This document shows, one piece after another, positions 536-20,393 of a DNA stretch of 20,643 nt. The DNA comes from a virus, in IMG/VR virus record IMGVR_UViG_3300044707_000069, positions 1 through 20,643 of that record, one strand, 5' to 3'. Under the pieces are notes generated by a model. It did not search any database, had not been told where the DNA came from, and saw only the letters and a program-made list of their open reading frames with translations. The translations under genes and the position numbers were made by a program. Position 1 is the stretch's first letter, and the number at the start of each line of letters is the position of its first letter.

Positions 536-1642
536 TTATTTGGTTTCTAGTTCTATTGCCTTTCTGGATGCCTCAACAATATCCTGCGCTGTTATATTCC
601 GCAGAGCATTGCACCAGTACTGAGTCTTGGGAGTCTTGTTGGTAGCATCCTTACACTTAGCCTGGGGCAACCCAGCGTGCGGACGGCAAGGCGCGTGCGG
701 GCAGGTATCGGGCTTGAATACCGATACGTTCTTACTATAATAAGTCATTCTGTCTTCTGGGGAATACGAACCCCACAGCGACACACACGGCGTATCCAAC
801 CCAGCAGCCATGTGATTGACTGAGCTATCTGGCGCGACAACGAAGTCAGCCCCGCTAATAATCGGGAACAGCGAGCGCACAGCCTTGGTGCAGTTAAATA
901 AGTCAATCACCCTGGGATGATCCACCTTAAAGTTGTTTGAGTTGTCCAGCCCAATGATTACAGCGTGATGCTTGGGGTAAGCCTCAAGCAATGCCAGCAC
1001 GGCCTCCTGCCCCATCGTTGGCGGGTAAGTGCGGGTCGGACCACTGGACGAAACGTGGTAGGCAAAGAACGGACTAGGCATCGGCCACTTGCCCATCGCC
1101 TTCAACTCTTCGTGGTCTGGCTCGATGAGATGCAGAACTGGCTTACAATACTTAGCCATAGTCTTCTCATCCCACACACCCATCCACTCGTAGATCCGCT
1201 GGTAGCAGTTGCCAGGACCAGTGCCTAGCTTCGTGTTACCAACCTGTCCGCTGAACAAATCGTCAGTCGGAACGTGGGCGTCAAAAGAATCCCAAGCCTC
1301 CAGTGAGGCAGGCAACGGCCACAGCTTTGCACCCAGCCCAGCGTAGAGAGGCAAGTTGCGAGCAGGCGCGTAAACTTCCACAACCCCACCCGACTCTTGC
1401 ACCAAGTAGTTGACGAAGGCAGTAGCGATGATCGCGTCACCGATTGCACCAGCGCGGTAGACGGCTGTTGCCCCACCAGCAGCACGCCCTTTGTAGTACG
1501 GCTTGATCTTGTGTGGGCAAGGGATTGACTCCTCCCAAACTCCTCCAGTTAGCTCATCGGGCAGCACATAGGTAGTGCGCGGGTAGAGCATATTGTCATC
1601 GACTTTTTGAATTGCGTTTGTGTTATTTGTCCATAGTTTCAT
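536..1642 (-). CDS. Glycosyltransferase family 9 (heptosyltransferase-like)
   Basis: The 368-residue protein has the two hallmarks of GT9 (ADP-heptose:LPS heptosyltransferase) enzymes. The first is an N-terminal Rossmann-type loop RAGAIGDAIIATAF (63-76). The second is the C-terminal donor-site segment ISGADFVVAPDSSVNHMAAG (262-281), followed by CVSLWGSYSPEDR. The family moves a sugar from a nucleotide-activated donor; in bacteria it usually acts on lipopolysaccharide core. Here the acceptor is unknown. A roughly 50-residue N-terminal extension and a cysteine-rich tail (Cys314, 319, 330, 344) are unusual. The start ATG at 1642 overlaps the TGA of the upstream gene as ATGA and has AAAGGCAGG upstream. 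It is the last member of the overlapping gene chain and could act with the other glycosyltransferase and the 2OG oxygenase at 2915-4790. Family assignment is good; substrate is not predictable. Confidence 0.85.
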   Translation of the reverse strand: MKLWTNNTNAIQKVDDNMLYPRTTYVLPDELTGGVWEESIPCPHKIKPYYKGRAAGGATAVYRAGAIGDAIIATAFVNYLVQESGGVVEVYAPARNLPLYAGLGAKLWPLPASLEAWDSFDAHVPTDDLFSGQVGNTKLGTGPGNCYQRIYEWMGVWDEKTMAKYCKPVLHLIEPDHEELKAMGKWPMPSPFFAYHVSSSGPTRTYPPTMGQEAVLALLEAYPKHHAVIIGLDNSNNFKVDHPRVIDLFNCTKAVRSLFPIISGADFVVAPDSSVNHMAAGLDTPCVSLWGSYSPEDRMTYYSKNVSVFKPDTCPHAPCRPHAGLPQAKCKDATNKTPKTQYWCNALRNITAQDIVEASRKAIELETK

Positions 1643-1914
1643 TTTGCCTGCCTTTCTATTTTGTGAATGAAGATCGGAGTCTGCTCACCTACATAAGCTC
1701 CTGCAATATTAAAATCAAAGTGTTCCATAGCTTCTGCGTAATCCATTCCTTCTTTCATAAGAATGTCAATCACTTTGTCGGCATCATAAATAGCGCAAAG
1801 CTGGTCGCCAAACTTGTTGCCAACCCCAATGATCGCGTCATCAAATCCGTCAGCGAACAGCATCGTTTCGGCATCATCACCGAACTGGTCAAGGATGTCT
1901 TCTCGTATGCTCAT
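1639..1914 (-). CDS. Conserved small phage protein, 91 residues
   Basis: An acidic protein with no catalytic motif that I can name. The pattern GFDDAIIGVGNKF, then AIYDADKVIDILMKEGMD, then EAMEHFDFNIAGAYVGEQTP is one I recognise as recurring in small hypothetical proteins of many phages and prophages; no function is attached to it. ATG at 1914 overlaps the stop of the 59-residue gene upstream (ATGA), and a GTGAGGA sequence precedes it. Its own TGA overlaps the start of the GT9 gene. The tight coupling to both sides says it is translated, but does not show that it works with the glycosyltransferase. Confidence 0.75.
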   Translation of the reverse strand: MSIREDILDQFGDDAETMLFADGFDDAIIGVGNKFGDQLCAIYDADKVIDILMKEGMDYAEAMEHFDFNIAGAYVGEQTPIFIHKIERQAK

Positions 1915-2090
1915 TCCTCACCCGCCACTTCCTTGCACACCAGGCTGGCCGCATCCACCATCGTTATGATTTGGATCATATCTATCGCGTGTCCGTGAGT
2001 CGCGCGATTCCTCTCAACTACAAGCTTATTGCGTGCAATTGAAAGGATCTCGCGCGCCCACTTGAGCCTAGCTTTAGCCTCGACTTGCAT
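1911..2090 (-). CDS. Small protein, 59 residues, function unknown
   Basis: The frame begins at ATG 2090, which shares its A with the TAA of the upstream gene (TAATG), and ends at TGA 1913-1911, which overlaps the next ATG (ATGA). The product starts MQVEAKARLKWAREILSIAR and ends VCKEVAGEE. It is predicted to be mainly helical, with a basic N-terminal half (KARLKWAREIL, RNKLVVERNRA) and a hydrophobic helix IDMIQIITMVDAASLV near the C-terminus. I recognise no family. The case for a real gene is the exact overlap at both ends and the absence of any other frame filling this stretch. Confidence 0.65.
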   Translation of the reverse strand: MQVEAKARLKWAREILSIARNKLVVERNRATHGHAIDMIQIITMVDAASLVCKEVAGEE

Positions 2091-2269
2091 TACGAACCAG
2101 ACCGCATCCGAAACTTGCGTGGCTTACTCTTGCCTGCTGCGGATAAAGCAATGGCAATCATCTGCTCGCGTGAGCGCGGCTTACCGCCTGCTCCACGCTC
2201 GCTACCCTTCCTGCGGTTATCCCTAGCCAACTCACTCATATTCTTCGATACGTCTTTACCTAATGGCAT
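2090..2269 (-). CDS. Small basic phage protein, 59 residues
   Basis: ATG at 2269 is preceded by AGAAAGGAAAATAGAAT, a good Shine-Dalgarno. The product opens MPLGKDVSKNMSELAR, continues through a Lys/Arg/Gly-rich stretch, and has the segment REQMIAIALSAAGKSK (35-50). That last motif (x-QMIAIALSxAGKSK) is like the C-terminal helix of very small basic phage proteins that I associate with the DUF6496-type group; this is from memory and not verified. Strongly positive charge suggests nucleic-acid binding or a virion-associated role. The TAA shares its last base with the next gene's ATG (TAATG). This gene follows one of the few non-overlapping joints in the left-hand gene chain (19 bases). Confidence 0.7.
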   Translation of the reverse strand: MPLGKDVSKNMSELARDNRRKGSERGAGGKPRSREQMIAIALSAAGKSKPRKFRMRSGS

Positions 2270-2288
2270 ATTCTATTTTCCTTTCTGT

Positions 2289-2915
2289 TTATGGTTGTTC
2301 CGACTTGTGAAGATCATAGTAAAAAGAATCTGTATCCTCCGTCACCCACTTGTCGGACTGATTCTCCACGCTGGGCAGTTCGGTATCAACACGAAACTGC
2401 TTTAAGTTCTCTGGCAACTTCTTCGTAACCCAATTACTATCCCGCCAGAAGATTCGGTTGTTTGGCATACAGAGTAAGTAGCCATCATCACCCGCGAACA
2501 CATGACCGCACTTGTAATCTGACGGCTCATCGCTGTATGGATTGTTAAACCAATCCACGGTAAACAAGTATGTACCCCATACCTTAGTCGCATCTCTAAG
2601 TAGTATCTGCGCGCGATGGTAGGCGAGGAAGCTGTACTCGGTTACAGTTACATTCTCAGAGAAGCAATCCCAAAGTTGTTTGTAGTTAAATGGGATGTCG
2701 GCCTCTGGCTCGTGCGTGTATATCTCCGATAGCGGTACTCGACTCCGCAGCATTCCAGAGTCAGTCATAACGTGGAAGGTTAGGATTGCCCCAGCGCAAG
2801 ACTGCAAGGCGAACACATAGACGTTGTAAAACTCCTTGTCCTCATCGTTCTTGGTAAAGAATGACTTCCTCACCATAGCCTTGAAGCTAGGGATGTTCTC
2901 GTTAAGCGTTGCCAT
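2289..2915 (-). CDS. Hypothetical protein, 208 residues
   Basis: I do not recognise this protein. The start chosen is ATG 2915-2913, which shares its A with the TAA of the oxygenase gene upstream (TAATG); the longer in-frame start at 3014 would run 100 bases back into the oxygenase gene and encodes an unlikely cysteine-rich leader. The product begins MATLNENIPSFKAM, is rich in aromatic residues (YNVYVFALQS, WGTYLFTVDWFNNPY, FAGDDGYLLCMPNNRIFWRD) and looks like a globular, mostly β protein without transmembrane segments. It sits directly after the 2OG oxygenase, so a joint role is possible, but the sequence itself does not show one. Confidence 0.75.
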   Translation of the reverse strand: MATLNENIPSFKAMVRKSFFTKNDEDKEFYNVYVFALQSCAGAILTFHVMTDSGMLRSRVPLSEIYTHEPEADIPFNYKQLWDCFSENVTVTEYSFLAYHRAQILLRDATKVWGTYLFTVDWFNNPYSDEPSDYKCGHVFAGDDGYLLCMPNNRIFWRDSNWVTKKLPENLKQFRVDTELPSVENQSDKWVTEDTDSFYYDLHKSEQP

Positions 2916-3487
2916 TATCGCCAAGCAGGTCCAGTAAACCAAGCCACAAGCACCCAGCGCGTTCCCCAAATAGGCGCACGCGCACGATGCTCGATGTAGG
3001 ATGGAAACCAACACCCTGCTCCCTGCTCGCGGATGAACTGAGGATTCACCATATCAGCCTTAGCCTGCAACCCTCCACCGATATACTCCTCTGGCGCGGA
3101 CAGGTTCACCACCGCTGTCAACTTGCGTACTGGTGCTTCGGATGTGTAGGTGTCCCAATGCCAGGAGAACTTCTGTAGTGGGCGGTATCGCAGGATCTGC
3201 AACTGTTGGATGCCTTGGATGTCGAAACGCCATTGCTCGGCATTGATGCCATCCGTAATCTCGCGCATCACATTGTAGATCCACTCGTAATGCTTGGCGA
3301 AAGGTATCCAGCACGATGAGCAGGTTCGCGTACGTGATACCGTACGTGTTACACCATCCTTCGAAAGCACTGGCGCACGCTTCATCCCGATCACTTCCGC
3401 ATCCTGGCGCAGCATCTCGCACTGCGTCCTAGTTAGGACATAGCGATCCACTGAAGCGGTTAATACCTTCTGCTTAAACTCGTTCAT
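2915..3487 (-). CDS. 2-oxoglutarate/Fe(II)-dependent oxygenase
   Basis: The 190-residue protein has the facial triad and co-substrate residues of the prolyl-4-hydroxylase-like 2OG-Fe(II) superfamily. These are HWD at 110-112 (iron-binding His110 and Asp112), then a distal His167 in FPSYIEHRA, and Arg177 in GTRWVLVAWFTGP, the expected 2-oxoglutarate anchor. The GGG at 137-139 precedes the expected jelly-roll strand. Members hydroxylate proteins, small molecules or, more rarely, nucleobases; phages often carry short forms of unknown target. The start at 3487 was chosen because it overlaps the preceding TGA (ATGA) and has GAGGAA five bases upstream; an upstream in-frame ATG at 3502 overlaps that same Shine-Dalgarno. 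Motifs are complete, so the enzyme is likely active. Confidence 0.87.
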   Translation of the reverse strand: MNEFKQKVLTASVDRYVLTRTQCEMLRQDAEVIGMKRAPVLSKDGVTRTVSRTRTCSSCWIPFAKHYEWIYNVMREITDGINAEQWRFDIQGIQQLQILRYRPLQKFSWHWDTYTSEAPVRKLTAVVNLSAPEEYIGGGLQAKADMVNPQFIREQGAGCWFPSYIEHRARAPIWGTRWVLVAWFTGPAWR

Positions 3488-3681
3488 TTGAGTTCCTCGC
3501 ATAGTTCAAGCAACGTCTTGTTTAGTGCATACTCGAAACAAGCCATCTTATCTTTAGCTAGGTGCTGACGGCCAGCCTTTGCCAACGCCTCGTAAAGATC
3601 ATCGTCAATATCGATCATTACCCTTACGGCTTTTTGCTCCAATGTTTTTACCAGAGTTATCTTTCTGTCTTTCTTTTTCAT
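3484..3681 (-). CDS. Ribbon-helix-helix-like small protein, copy A
   Basis: A 65-residue product starting MKKKDRKITL. After a basic N-terminal tail comes a β-strand (KAVRVMIDID, 17-26) and two helices (DLYEALAKAGRQHL and KDKMACFEYALNKTLLEL). This β-α-α order is that of MetJ/Arc ribbon-helix-helix DNA-binding dimers; the fold assignment is inferred from pattern only. It aligns without gaps with the protein at 4787-4975 with about 17 identical residues in 41. The start at 3681 was chosen because AAAGGAA lies at a proper distance and the ATG overlaps the TGA of the small membrane protein upstream (ATGA). A longer in-frame reading from 3792 would lie over the membrane protein gene and is probably an artefact. 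It may repress or autoregulate phage genes. Confidence 0.65.
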   Translation of the reverse strand: MKKKDRKITLVKTLEQKAVRVMIDIDDDLYEALAKAGRQHLAKDKMACFEYALNKTLLELCEELK

Positions 3682-3824
3682 CTGTCTAGTTCCTTTCGTA
3701 TGATTTCGATTAACTTGAAGATCAAGTAACCAGCGCAATAGATTGCCGATAAAGTAAGCGAACTGTAAAGCACAAACCAACCGATTACCCAAACAACTCC
3801 AGCCAGATCAAGTAGGCAAAACAT
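3678..3824 (-). CDS. Small membrane protein, 48 residues, two hydrophobic segments
   Basis: The frame starts at ATG 3824 with CTAAAGGAAAACGACT upstream, a good Shine-Dalgarno, and overlaps the end of the preceding gene by 17 bases. Its TGA overlaps the ATG of the ribbon-helix-helix gene (ATGA). The product is almost wholly hydrophobic to residue 42: segment one is about LLDLAGVVWVIGWFVLY (4-20), segment two about LTLSAIYCAGYLIFKLI (23-39), ending with a charged tail EIIRKELDR. Size and topology fit an inner-membrane hairpin. Small holins look like this, but the muralytic gene is 4.7 kb away, so a holin call would be a guess. No family recognised. Confidence 0.65.
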   Translation of the reverse strand: MFCLLDLAGVVWVIGWFVLYSSLTLSAIYCAGYLIFKLIEIIRKELDR

Positions 3825-4128
3825 AGTCGTTTTCCTTTAGTTTCCTTAACAGCGTTCTATTATCTATCTGCACCCCGCTAGCCCTGCACCACCAGGAGAC
3901 AACGCCAGTCTTAAAGTCACGCAACAGCTTCTGTACTTCGTGCGAGTTCTTATACTCCAGCGCATCGTTGAGTGGCACACCTTGGTGGCCTTTAACAATC
4001 TTCATACCCTTAACCATCCCGCGCTTGCGCAACATCCGTAGGTCGCGGATAGCCTGGAGTGCAACCTCACCAGCCAACTGTTGCACCCTATCATCGTAAT
4101 CACCGCGACATAGCTGGGTTGACCTCAC
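3808..4128 (-). CDS. Hypothetical protein, 106 residues, GTG start
   Basis: Starts with GTG at 4128, overlapping the TGA of the glycosyltransferase gene as GTGA, with GGAG eight bases upstream. The protein is basic and helical in its N-terminal half (VQQLAGEVALQAIRDLRMLRKRG) and ends with VSWWCRASG and a predicted helix NRTLLRKLKEND. The two tryptophans in VSWWCR and the Lys/Arg content could suggest nucleic-acid binding, but I recognise no domain. Its 3' end overlaps the next gene by 17 bases. Confidence 0.65.
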   Translation of the reverse strand: MRSTQLCRGDYDDRVQQLAGEVALQAIRDLRMLRKRGMVKGMKIVKGHQGVPLNDALEYKNSHEVQKLLRDFKTGVVSWWCRASGVQIDNRTLLRKLKENDYVLPT

Positions 4129-4790
4129 CGACCTAGCTCCACCAGCTTCGCTTCGTCTTCTTTAATCTGGTTAGATAATCTAGTTAGATCGTTTGACTGC
4201 CCAGCGTAATGAATAATCATTGCGTCCTTGTAGCGGTCCAATCCAAAGTGCGACTCAACGCTGGTCATACAATTGAATGACGGGTCAAGCTCGGTCAGCG
4301 GTATGTTCCATAGGTGCGCCATCACGTTGAGCCAGGTCTGCTCGGCGAAGTGATTTGGGTGCAGGCCAATGGGTGGCATTGATAAGATACCAACGGCCTT
4401 GGTATGAACTACGAACACGCCAGTGTTGACATAGAACTTAGGCTCAATCACACCGCCAAAAGCTCCAGCCAGCTTGACCATATCTGGCTTGCGATCCAAG
4501 AACGCTCCCTCGTCAAAGGCACAGAACACACCAGCGTCCTCGGATAGCTTCGGGCAATCGGCTGCAATCAGAACGTCAGCGTCAACGAATGTTACCTGCT
4601 CGTAGCCCTTGGTTGCCATGATGTTTCCAATTGCTGACTTGGAGTATTGGGCTGGATGCGTGAGAGGCTTGTCGATTAGAATGAAGTCAGTGCTATGGCG
4701 TTTGCAGTACGCCTCCATCCTCGGTCTAGTCAGATCAATAATCTTCTGCCAATCCTCACCAAACGATTGCGTTACTAATGCTTGTTTCAT
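4125..4790 (-). CDS. GT-A-fold glycosyltransferase (GT8-like)
   Basis: The 221-residue protein has the features of a GT-A nucleotide-sugar transferase. VTFVDADVLI carries the metal-binding DxD motif at 70-72; FYVNTGVFVVH (119-129) matches the FNSGv segment of GT8-like enzymes; AEQTWLN (149-155) and the late IIHYAGQS with His194 are in the expected order for donor and metal contacts. It is shorter than many GT8 enzymes but seems complete. Sugar and acceptor cannot be read from sequence. ATG at 4790 overlaps the TGA of the upstream small regulator (ATGA); there is no good Shine-Dalgarno, so translation probably depends on coupling. Together with the GT9 enzyme and the 2OG oxygenase it forms a possible modification cassette. 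Confidence 0.8.
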   Translation of the reverse strand: MKQALVTQSFGEDWQKIIDLTRPRMEAYCKRHSTDFILIDKPLTHPAQYSKSAIGNIMATKGYEQVTFVDADVLIAADCPKLSEDAGVFCAFDEGAFLDRKPDMVKLAGAFGGVIEPKFYVNTGVFVVHTKAVGILSMPPIGLHPNHFAEQTWLNVMAHLWNIPLTELDPSFNCMTSVESHFGLDRYKDAMIIHYAGQSNDLTRLSNQIKEDEAKLVELGR

Positions 4791-4975
4791 TTTTTTAATT
4801 GATATGCCAATGATTTTTGAATTACATATTCAATCACGGCTTCCTTATCTTTTTTTAACAACTCTAATCCAATCTTAAACAAGGTTGCCTCAGTCTCTTT
4901 ATCGTAAGACACATCGACAATAACTGCCTTTGGGGCTGGTCTTGACTTGCCAAATTTTATAGTTCCTATTTTCAT
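4787..4975 (-). CDS. Ribbon-helix-helix-like small protein, copy B
   Basis: A 62-residue product beginning MKIGTIKFGKSRPAP. It repeats the layout of the protein at 3484-3681: a basic N-terminal tail, the strand KAVIVDVSYD (16-25), helix ETEATLFKIGLELL and helix KDKEAVIEYVIQKSLAYQL. The core KAVxV, LxKxG, LxKDKxAxxEY and K.L positions are the same in both. The start at 4975 is supported by overlap with the TGA of the upstream gene (ATGA) and by GGAAG eight bases upstream; another in-frame ATG at 4990 has a weaker site. Probably a dimeric DNA-binding protein or a related small adaptor; the target is unknown. Confidence 0.65.
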   Translation of the reverse strand: MKIGTIKFGKSRPAPKAVIVDVSYDKETEATLFKIGLELLKKDKEAVIEYVIQKSLAYQLKK

Positions 4976-5127
4976 TTTACGTTCTTCCATATTTTGCCAT
5001 GCTCATCCAGCGCGGATGACCAGATCATCATCTTGTTATAGATACTGTAGGCATAGCCAAACCTCATCAGCGTGAGGCTAATCAGATCACCGATCTGATA
5101 ACAGATCCAAGACAAAGCCAGCTTCAT
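4972..5127 (-). CDS. Small conserved-looking phage protein, 51 residues
   Basis: ATG at 5127 overlaps the TGA of the acidic small gene upstream (ATGA) and the TGA at 4974-4972 overlaps the next ATG (ATGA). The product begins MKLALSWICYQIGDLISLTL, then has an aromatic helix RFGYAYSIYNKMMIWSSALD and ends EHGKIWKNVK. The ending (YNxxMxWSSxLDxxGxIWK) resembles short hypothetical proteins that I recall from many tailed phages; no function is known for them. Its first 20 residues are amphipathic or hydrophobic and could touch the membrane. The coding region includes two adjacent inverted repeats at 5062-5099. Confidence 0.7.
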   Translation of the reverse strand: MKLALSWICYQIGDLISLTLMRFGYAYSIYNKMMIWSSALDEHGKIWKNVK

Positions 5128-8228: not shown

Positions 8229-8567
8229 ATGAAAGCAATAATAACTATGACACTGACGGCGATGCTGATGGCATCGGTGATGGCGGATGATTTTGATGGC
8301 GGAGTATATGACTCTGGATACGCCGTGTTTAGCGGTGGCAAAGGATTGGCTATAACATCAAATGGATTGATAGTAGATAATGGCATACTCAAGCAAACTC
8401 CTAATGGATGTTATTCCTCATGTGGAGATGTTTATTATGGTGGGAACGAAATTGTAACAAAGAGTGGATACCTTTATTATGGATCAAATGGTACAAAGGT
8501 GCAGGTTGGTCAATATTATTCTGGAACGGCTGGATCAACCTATGTGTTTGAGGACGATTCAGAATAA
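8229..8567 (+). CDS. Small secreted protein, only plus-strand gene
   Basis: The 112-residue product has a clear N-terminal signal peptide: MKAIITMTLTAMLMASVMA, with cleavage likely before DDFDGG. The mature part is rich in Gly, Tyr, Ser and Asn, with short β-like units (SGYAVFSGGKGLAIT, SNGLIVDNGILKQ, DVYYGGNEIVTKSGYLYYGSNG) and two cysteines in CYSSC; it looks like a small β-rich exported protein. It is on the opposite strand to everything else. Its start is 38 bases from the divergent nuclease start, and its TAA is immediately followed by the stop (TAG read on the minus strand) of the muralytic gene, with no space between. Phage genes set like this are often morons acting on the host envelope. 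No family recognised; no strong promoter or Shine-Dalgarno is seen upstream. Confidence 0.75.
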   Translation: MKAIITMTLTAMLMASVMADDFDGGVYDSGYAVFSGGKGLAITSNGLIVDNGILKQTPNGCYSSCGDVYYGGNEIVTKSGYLYYGSNGTKVQVGQYYSGTAGSTYVFEDDSE

Positions 8568-19010: not shown

Positions 19011-20393
19011 CTAGCTTAGTATGGAAACACAAACAGTTACAAAGTCAAATTGCCCGCCGTTATTTGCGTATCCTGACACAACTCTTACAGAGCCTGCGGC
19101 TGGATTACTTGCAAAATTAGCTATACTTACACCCAAAACTGTAGATGCTCCAGCATTTTCAATATACTTTCCTGTTGATGCAACACAATAATTTGCATTA
19201 CTCATGGCGGTAGTGAAATTCACAGTATAATCACCAGTTCCATTGTCTGCAACTGTGCTTACATTAAAGTCATCTCGGATAGTGCAATTACCACCGACAT
19301 TAGTTGTTCCATCGAAATTAACCCAAGCTTTTGAAGTTCGTTTTGCTACGTTGTCAGCTTCTGTTGTGCTAGTCGATAGCATTGGGAATGTAATAGAATT
19401 AGTCCCAATAGTAACATTACTCCAGCTTGGTGCGGCTGAAGCTCCTGCACTTGTTAGAACCTGACCGCTTGTTCCGTAGTTTGCTCCACCGATTCCGATT
19501 TGACCAGCAGATGCAATTCGTAGGCGTTCGGTGCTATTGGTGTAAAAATTTGTTGAGCCAGCCGCGTTGCTGAATAGATCAAAGTCAGTTCCGTTTTGGC
19601 TTATAATAGAATAGGTTGTGCTTGCTGTGTCTGCAAAGATTATTGATGGAATACCGCTATCTGCAATTACAATACCATTTGCGCTGCCAGAGTAAGCAGA
19701 CATATATGTAGCTGGAGAATCGGTCCCAATCCCAACATTACCGATTGAATCAATCCTCATCGCCTCAGCCCCACCCTCAGCAAACGCAATCGTGTCAGCG
19801 GCGGGGAAGAATATGCCTGTGTTAGTATCGCCAGTTGGCGAGATGGCTGGGGCGGCTGCCGTTCCTGTCCCGCTTGTAATCTTAGTTATGGATGTAAGGG
19901 TTGGGATTGTTCCAGTGGTGCTATTAAGCGTGGCAATCGTTCCATTGGTGCTGCTCAATCCAGTAATAGTTCCAGTAGTACTATTTAGCGTAGCTACAGT
20001 TCCAGTGGTGCTGTTTAGCGTGTTGATAGTTCCAGTGGTGGTGTTTAATCCAGTAATCGTGCCAGTAGTGATTGTTGCGCTGGTGCTAACTGTGCGATTG
20101 CCAGTAGCCGTACCGTAAGTAAGTTGCTCGGCGATGTTCGCGTTTGTAAATGTTCCGCCAGTAAGAGTGTCGTTTAATAGTTTCTGGATTGTTACCTTGT
20201 TAGCCGCACCACTGCTTCCAGCATCTGTGTCGGCAATGAGAAGCAAGTCAGCCGTACTTACAGTTGCTGCGATTGCGGTTTGATCTGCAATAACGCCACT
20301 ATAAATATCCAGCAGTCCGACTATGTTATTTAGCTTTGCGCCTGTTACTTGATCGCCGTCAGCGAACGATTGACCTGTATTAAATTTAGCCAT
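19011..20393 (-). CDS. Tail fibre / receptor-binding protein, 460 residues
   Basis: Low-complexity Thr/Ser/Gly/Asn-rich protein with trimeric-fibre character. The N-terminus MAKFNTGQSFADGDQVTGAK probably attaches to the tail. Residues 111-170 are six ten-residue repeats of the type GTIxTLNSTT. Next is TNTGIFFPAADTIAFAEGGA then EAMRIDSIGNVGIGTDSPA (190-228), a segment widespread in phage fibres, and a second similar unit ERLRIASAGQIGIGGANYGT (289-308). The C-terminal part KAWVNFDGTTNVG through TGDYTVNFTTAMSNANYCVA (355-405) is the host-range-type distal domain known from many aquatic phages. No intramolecular chaperone is seen, so folding may depend on the small proteins downstream. Start 20393 has GAGG 12 bases upstream. 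High confidence as a fibre; receptor unknown. Confidence 0.87.
   Translation of the reverse strand: MAKFNTGQSFADGDQVTGAKLNNIVGLLDIYSGVIADQTAIAATVSTADLLLIADTDAGSSGAANKVTIQKLLNDTLTGGTFTNANIAEQLTYGTATGNRTVSTSATITTGTITGLNTTTGTINTLNSTTGTVATLNSTTGTITGLSSTNGTIATLNSTTGTIPTLTSITKITSGTGTAAAPAISPTGDTNTGIFFPAADTIAFAEGGAEAMRIDSIGNVGIGTDSPATYMSAYSGSANGIVIADSGIPSIIFADTASTTYSIISQNGTDFDLFSNAAGSTNFYTNSTERLRIASAGQIGIGGANYGTSGQVLTSAGASAAPSWSNVTIGTNSITFPMLSTSTTEADNVAKRTSKAWVNFDGTTNVGGNCTIRDDFNVSTVADNGTGDYTVNFTTAMSNANYCVASTGKYIENAGASTVLGVSIANFASNPAAGSVRVVSGYANNGGQFDFVTVCVSILS
19884..20063 (-). repeat. Six in-frame 30-bp repeats in the tail fibre gene
   Basis: Six consecutive 30-base units encode residues 111-170: GTITGLNTTT, GTINTLNSTT, GTVATLNSTT, GTITGLSSTN, GTIATLNSTT and GTIPTLTSIT. 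They are diverged at base level but keep length and frame exactly. Such units lengthen a fibre shaft and can change copy number by recombination or slippage. Confidence 0.9.

Follow-up and report, generated by a model that had tools for sequence, protein, structure and literature searches.

The described systems closest to the genes discussed here include the PBCV-1 protein A064R, which combines a glycosyltransferase (GT), a second GT and a methyltransferase and completes the glycan of the capsid protein (PMC9614988); the PDB describes its structure 2p6w as a glycosyltransferase involved in major capsid glycosylation. Capsid glycosylation is also reported for mycobacteriophages Che8 and Rita (Freeman et al. 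2023 and another paper, as cited in PMC11256854), and modification of the cell wall or lipopolysaccharide (LPS) is one role proposed for cyanophage GTs (PMC9602691). The locus analyzed here lies in the 20,643 bp IMG/VR contig IMGVR_UViG_3300044707_000069, the whole of which is called the window below. Its main genes are encoded on the minus strand and include a chain of mostly overlapping genes encoding a GT9 family enzyme, a 2-oxoglutarate (2OG)/Fe(II) oxygenase and a GT-A enzyme (Table 1). The rest of the contig encodes a recombination/replication block, lysozyme and virion proteins, and so the window is phage DNA. Our preferred reading, to which we give a probability of about 0.4, is that the GT-A and GT9 enzymes form a two-enzyme pair of one pathway that most likely glycosylates the phage's own head protein, and that the oxygenase and a 208 amino acid protein encoded in the same chain are separate from it.

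Conservation and pairing of the two glycosyltransferases

Scans of IMG/VR with the three enzymes gave 215, 327 and 292 relatives. Gene order is identical throughout the group 1 relatives that were inspected. A second group, found through the divergent locus L159, comprises 20 loci; most of the proteins that it shares with group 1 are 36-50% identical to their counterparts there. In complete group 2 loci the GT-A and GT9 genes are adjacent and overlapping and are followed by an RHH-like gene, the 2OG gene, usually a small gene, and the 208 amino acid protein gene; the two GT genes are 2.2-4.3 kb apart in group 1. The same gene set thus recurs in two phage groups in changed order, and chance accumulation, the outcome that an earlier note on this DNA had set against its proposal of a cassette, is ruled out by recurrence in hundreds of contigs and by the constant pairing of the GTs.

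Both GTs are present in all 27 long contigs, and all three enzymes in 21 of them. Among more distant carriers found with a GT9 profile, a GT-A gene lies on the same strand in all 34 contigs with sufficient upstream sequence; 24 of these have the 2OG gene and 22 the 208 amino acid protein gene, and in ten the GT pair occurs without 2OG. Five contigs of 37-41 kb (G042, G044, G068, G070 and G072) carry both GTs and no PF13640 oxygenase gene anywhere. Since the GT pair is constant and the 2OG gene is often missing, it is the pair that forms the unit, with the oxygenase as an optional addition.

The GT alleles are matched as well. Over all loci the GT-A/GT9 combinations are A/A (59), B1/B1 (6), B2/B2 (10) and group 2 (16, with proteins 26-35% identical to every group 1 reference), and there are no mixed pairs. 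Locus L159 was considered as a discordant case (a type A GT9 with a distant GT-A) and rejected, as this chimeric contig also carries its own matched pair; at ∼7.1-7.7 kb a group 2 left part is joined to a group 1 right part, giving two helicase and two GT9 genes, and it is either a recombinant or an assembly chimera. Genes between the GTs have been exchanged repeatedly while the GT alleles stayed matched: within class B1, the versions of u106 (the 106 amino acid protein in Table 1) are 96-98%, 85-86% or 77-78% identical to that of the window, and the 2OG proteins range from 81 to 97%. In 32 distinct contigs that were sampled through the 2OG gene, and hence not picked on their GTs, GT-A and GT9 distances correlate at r = 0.93 (0.905 given u106), and 2OG distances correlate at 0.29 with GT-A and 0.18 with GT9. 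Constant pairing and allele matching show that two virus-encoded GTs are kept as a set, and these sequence patterns lead us to infer that the two probably act jointly.

These same data bear on a quite different arrangement, in which the oxygenase hydroxylates a proline- or lysine-like residue that the GTs then glycosylate, as in viral collagen or Skp1. The solved chain nearest to the oxygenase is PBCV-1 prolyl 4-hydroxylase (5c5t, 3e-4), a sequence search with the GT-A profile gave a weak match to the Skp1 galactosyltransferase (6mw5, 0.086), and the three enzymes do co-occur in most long contigs. With the GT pair lacking 2OG in ten of 34 contigs and 2OG alleles that are independent of the GT alleles, such a pathway is very unlikely, and a single co-inherited three-enzyme pathway is rejected as stated on the same ten contigs and the 0.18 correlation with GT9. 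The idea in the earlier note that hydroxyl groups and sugars may be added to one target is therefore not supported, the 2OG gene in addition tracking its replication-side neighbors (below).

Family and fold of the enzymes

The GT9 protein matches Pfam Glyco_transf_9 at 34.3 bits (cut-off 22), and its L159 orthologue does so at 34.2 bits. Its C-terminus carries an invariant Cys-rich motif, CPHAPC...KCKDAxN...WCN. A genome scan made with only two short, narrow patterns found no bacterial GT9 homologue. The GT-A protein of the window falls below the cut-off of Glyco_transf_8 (PF01501; 8.8e-4, 19.4 bits against 24.3), and the distant L159 orthologue narrowly exceeds it (24.6 bits). Its DxD and metal-binding His are preserved from group 1 to group 2, with D70, D72 and H194 invariant. 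A structure model of this protein (pLDDT 75, pTM 0.79) has A064R domain 1 as its top four PDB matches (2p6w, E 8.4e-10, TM 0.61-0.66), followed by glycogenin (E 3e-6), the Skp1 galactosyltransferase and LgtC (1g9r); the fold search and the invariant residues together identify a GT-A fold with DxD and His. Likeness of fold to A064R is suggestive and would not by itself identify the acceptor of the modeled enzyme.

Covariation of the glycosyltransferases with the head genes

The window stops short of the head module, and the head gene comparisons come from relatives, in which profiles identified the portal (PF23899) and the capsid (PF25209); these two genes and that of the scaffold lie ∼20 kb from GT9. 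When near-complete genomes were compared, the type B genome departed from type A in its GTs and its head module (methyltransferase at ∼28%, scaffold at ∼62% and capsid at ∼68-72%), and many of the genes flanking or separating the GTs showed little difference. The main Mantel comparison used distances determined gene by gene in 23 group 1 genomes. In it GT9 correlates at 0.88 with the major capsid protein (MCP), 0.94 with scaffold and 0.91 with portal, as against 0.37, 0.51 and 0.24 with its physical neighbors u98, u106 and 2OG. The GT9-MCP value is still 0.93 when type B is excluded, and GT9 tracks MCP better than u98, u106 or 2OG do in every delete-3 jackknife. GT-A correlates at 0.78 with a Methyltransf_24 methyltransferase and at 0.64 with MCP, values that exceed those of the flanks tested as long as type B is part of the set. 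The 2OG distances follow those of the replication-side genes u98 (0.85) and u106 (0.86); with the capsid the value is 0.06. This pattern suggests that the GT pair decorates the virus shell.

Several observations weigh against this reading. The Mantel tests use genomes that share ancestry. Without type B, GT-A tracks its neighbors (u106 0.72, 2OG 0.76) above MCP (0.53), so a head linkage of GT-A as strong as that of GT9 does not hold; the GT-A link is weaker and rests largely on one lineage. Among type A genomes alone (n = 11) the MCP link is weak for both enzymes (GT9 0.47, GT-A 0.26) and not significant. The match to A064R is at the level of fold only (TM ∼0.6, 19% identity, in a model of pLDDT 75), and glycogenin and LgtC match too. 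Finally, those relatives of GT9 whose function has been established are LPS heptosyltransferases, an argument for a cell surface acceptor.

Because TerL also tracks GT9 (0.86), and MCP as well (0.78), part of the signal may reflect vertical inheritance of a core instead of functional coupling. Taken to its limit, the GTs, head genes and terminase would simply be such a core around which replication-side genes recombine, and the loss of significance within type A would fit this. The GTs are, however, embedded singly among recombining genes, and therefore breakpoints would have had to spare both repeatedly; the GT9-MCP correlation remains 0.72 given TerL and 0.71 given helicase distances, and mixed GT pairs do not occur. 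Absence of any head coupling thus seems improbable.

It is somewhat less doubtful that the pair modifies the host's LPS or another surface glycan, with GT9 adding a heptose-like sugar to the core and GT-A extending it, for receptor masking or superinfection exclusion. The GT9 profile matches LPS heptosyltransferases (1psw, 1.2e-4; 2h1f, 0.0019), in an alignment that covers the C-terminal stretch only, GT8-type LPS enzymes such as LgtC share the GT-A fold, and the role proposed for cyanophage GTs is of this kind; the alternative keeps its standing because the GT9 enzymes of known function are heptosyltransferases. Functions linked to the receptor are expected to track receptor-binding proteins. 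GT9 instead tracks the head genes and correlates at only 0.24 with the tail-side gene HC617, and a limited inspection of the window and of relatives showed no flippase gene next to the GTs. On balance we regard a surface target as rather unlikely.

Under the preferred reading, glycosylation of a head protein, GT-A and GT9 would act successively inside the infected cell, before or during head assembly, and their product would be a short glycan on MCP or a neighboring head protein. In relatives, a class I methyltransferase whose gene sits between those of portal and scaffold might cap or finish the sugar. This PF13578 (Methyltransf_24) gene is present in 14 of 21 and 12 of 17 long contigs (overlapping sets) and in both groups; G001 has it flanked by portal and scaffold. 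The oxygenase and the 208 amino acid protein would provide accessory functions of their own from within the shared transcription unit. The catalytic activities of GT-A and GT9, their order of action, the sugar, the head acceptor and the role of the methyltransferase are all predictions from sequence, and the parallel with the two GTs and methyltransferase of A064R is a suggestive analogy. Elsewhere among the relatives, at L200:2453-2983, a Methyltransf_24 gene between portal and scaffold has a divergence that follows GT-A (0.78-0.88).

DNA modification genes beside GT9

The slot between the 59 amino acid protein gene and GT9 was compared in 90 contigs and holds a gene for a C5-methyltransferase in 44, an N6-methyltransferase in five, Mom in three and none of these in 40; examples with C5-, N6/N4-methyltransferase or Mom just upstream of GT9 are L029:3574-5418, L074:11161-12267 and L167:8038-8763. 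Anti-restriction DNA modification is thus a neighbor of the GTs, and DNA hypermodification, in which C5 methylation would be followed by 2OG oxidation and glycosylation, was weighed for that reason. The C5-methyltransferase is missing from 13 of the 21 long contigs, among them every one of the nine group 2 contigs tested there (group 2 loci L215 and L226 do carry one), the five 37-41 kb contigs mentioned above keep both GTs without 2OG, and the oxygenase is of the PF13640 type, with Tet_JBP (PF12851) matching none of 21 relatives in a search whose control gave no signal anywhere, which makes this last point a weak one. Since the C5 enzyme is often missing and no TET enzyme was found, the GTs appear independent of a 5-methylcytosine route; the sequence from 5-methylcytosine through TET to glycosylation is rejected as a general route, and DNA as the target is highly improbable. 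The earlier note had favored a protein or surface target: a virion protein is likewise favored over DNA here, and its single target shared by oxygenase and GTs is not supported.

The 2OG/Fe(II) oxygenase

The oxygenase matches 2OG-FeII_Oxy_3 (PF13640) above the cut-off, and its HxD, distal His and Arg are preserved in 21 orthologues from group 1 to group 2, so that the complete motif set noted earlier is present and is kept in both groups. Together with 5c5t as nearest solved chain, this agrees with its description there as prolyl-hydroxylase-like and not TET-like; a Pfam search with the window protein likewise gave no Tet_JBP match. ATG 3487 is the more likely start than ATG 3502 because it gives a 4 nt overlap and a conserved MNEFKQK beginning. 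Cyanophage and pelagiphage 2OG-Fe(II) oxygenases (phrog_61) are 23-33% identical to it; unlike them, it is encoded by a single PF13640 copy per genome within a GT-bearing operon. PADLOC made no defense assignment apart from a generic 2OG model. Overall, the oxygenase seems to be an independent passenger of the transcription unit, separate from the GT pair.

The 208 amino acid protein

The gene downstream of the oxygenase, which starts at 2915 through a 1 nt TAATG overlap, encodes a protein first described as an unknown. It is not an orphan, as it matches PHROG 3704 (Table 1) and has homologues 27-38% identical in cyanophages, pelagiphages and a Flavobacterium phage. Databases label the family PurM/phosphoribosylaminoimidazole synthetase or ferredoxin (as at L198, L227, L229 and L230), and papers treat this "PurM" as a purine synthesis gene (PMC9599517, PMC6293099, PMC3037559). 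Nine diverse members gave no PurM/AIRS or ferredoxin match in Pfam or NCBIfam. The structure prediction that the earlier note had proposed gave an all-beta model (pLDDT 71.5), whose fold matches are weak tandem SH3/Tudor-like proteins (TM ∼0.23) and uncharacterized phage proteins, with no AIRS-fold entry among the PDB matches listed. We therefore reject both labels, PurM because the AIRS domain is absent from the nine members and the fold is all-beta, not alpha/beta, and ferredoxin because no match was found. The window protein thus belongs by sequence with the cyanophage and pelagiphage "PurM" auxiliary metabolic gene and differs from true PurM, and the label is likely an annotation error of long standing in a phage gene that is very common.

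Alleles A and B of this protein are ∼27% identical, occupy the same locus and are both shared between the phage groups: group 1 has A in 58, B in 44, B2 in eight, another in one and none in 22, and group 2 has A in four and B in 12. Between the groups, allele A is 92-94% identical; for most other proteins this figure is 36-50%. Exchanged alleles are present at L212, L213, L218, L224, L226 and L118; it looks like the locus has been swapped between groups and is possibly diversifying. In cyanophages S-SSM5 and P-RSM4 (L198:3026-4681, L227:3402-4675) a gene of this family also comes after 2OG, one gene away in S-SSM5 and directly in P-RSM4, suggesting a recurrent association of the two genes. The gene after 2OG in Roseobacter phage CRP-810 was compared with the family and no link was found.

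Other features of the window

Profiles, motifs and gene overlaps bear out the placement of two GTs and a 2OG oxygenase in one overlapping chain. The overlaps are 1-19 nt, typically 4 nt, the sole gap is 19 nt at 2270-2288, and the chain continues upstream past 4790. Pfam gave no confirmation of the two proteins that had been called RHH-like. The window DNA has no match in a 50,697-record phage collection.

Table 1. Genes of the glycosyltransferase-oxygenase chain in the window
Product	Position	Strand	Evidence
GT9 family glycosyltransferase (GT-B), 368 aa	536..1642	-	PF01075 2.1e-8; profile matches 1psw/2h1f; invariant C-terminal motif
Small protein, 91 aa, phrog_13182; many relatives without counterpart	1639..1914	-	phrog match 5.7e-31
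Small uncharacterized protein, 59 aa	1911..2090	-	Open reading frame
Small basic protein, 59 aa, DUF6496-like	2090..2269	-	PF20106 1.3e-5
208 aa protein, allele A, of phage family labeled "PurM"/"ferredoxin"	2289..2915	-	phrog_3704 1.3e-38; predicted all-beta
2OG/Fe(II) oxygenase, prolyl-hydroxylase-like, 190 aa (195 aa from ATG 3502)	2915..3487	-	PF13640 9.2e-9; phrog_61 1.7e-20; 5c5t
65 aa protein, RHH-like by eye only	3484..3681	-	No significant Pfam match
Membrane-hairpin-like protein, 48 aa	3678..3824	-	Open reading frame
Uncharacterized protein u106, 106 aa; three alleles beside unchanged type B1 GTs in relatives	3808..4128	-	
GT-A glycosyltransferase, GT8/GT34-like fold, 221 aa, DAD motif	4125..4790	-	Weak GT8; fold match 2p6w; D70, D72, H194
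67 aa protein, RHH-like by eye; few relatives have counterpart	4787..4990	-	Open reading frame

Two features lie outside the chain. A lone small open reading frame on the plus strand (8229-8567), opposite to all other genes, encodes a secreted-looking, G/S/Y-rich protein of 112 amino acids; its counterpart at L201:2624-2989 has a similar size and start and likewise runs opposite to its neighbors. On the minus strand, 19011-20393 encodes a tail-fiber-like protein whose extended repeats, rich in Thr and Gly (TGTI.TLNSTTGT), might make it an O-glycosylation substrate.

Implications and comparison with known systems

The carriers of the GT pair are a large, uncultured, mostly freshwater phage group. 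We tentatively propose, as a possibility that is weaker than the preferred reading itself, that they have a new capsid glycosylation system consisting of GT-A and GT9, perhaps with a portal-adjacent sugar O-methyltransferase, that is universal in this very abundant group of tailed phages and co-inherited with the capsid allele it decorates despite frequent recombination. If this is true, glycosylated particles are the norm in a large uncultured group of aquatic phages instead of a curiosity confined to a few isolates, and the target of a GT could be recovered from metagenomes through allele linkage; the pair exists in at least four matched allele classes, which makes the question testable. The apparent "purM" misannotation, for its part, has consequences for what has been published on the purine metabolism of cyanophages and pelagiphages.

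The LPS heptosyltransferases WaaC and WaaF are of the same GT9 family as the window enzyme, which differs from them in its extra Cys-rich C-terminus and its pairing with a GT-A enzyme in phage genomes. Che8 and Rita also have phage GT genes, and their glycans are reported to sit on the major capsid protein; the GT-A and GT9 proteins of the window have no match in the 50,697-record collection, and the link to the capsid is here an evolutionary one. Compared with PBCV-1 A064R, the enzymes here are encoded by separate genes in a tailed phage, the second GT is a GT9 enzyme instead of the A064R-D2 type, and a capsid glycan and an action of the methyltransferase on the sugar are predictions from the genes. 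The two systems are alike in having two viral GTs and a class I methyltransferase linked to the capsid, and the best fold match of the GT-A enzyme is A064R domain 1.

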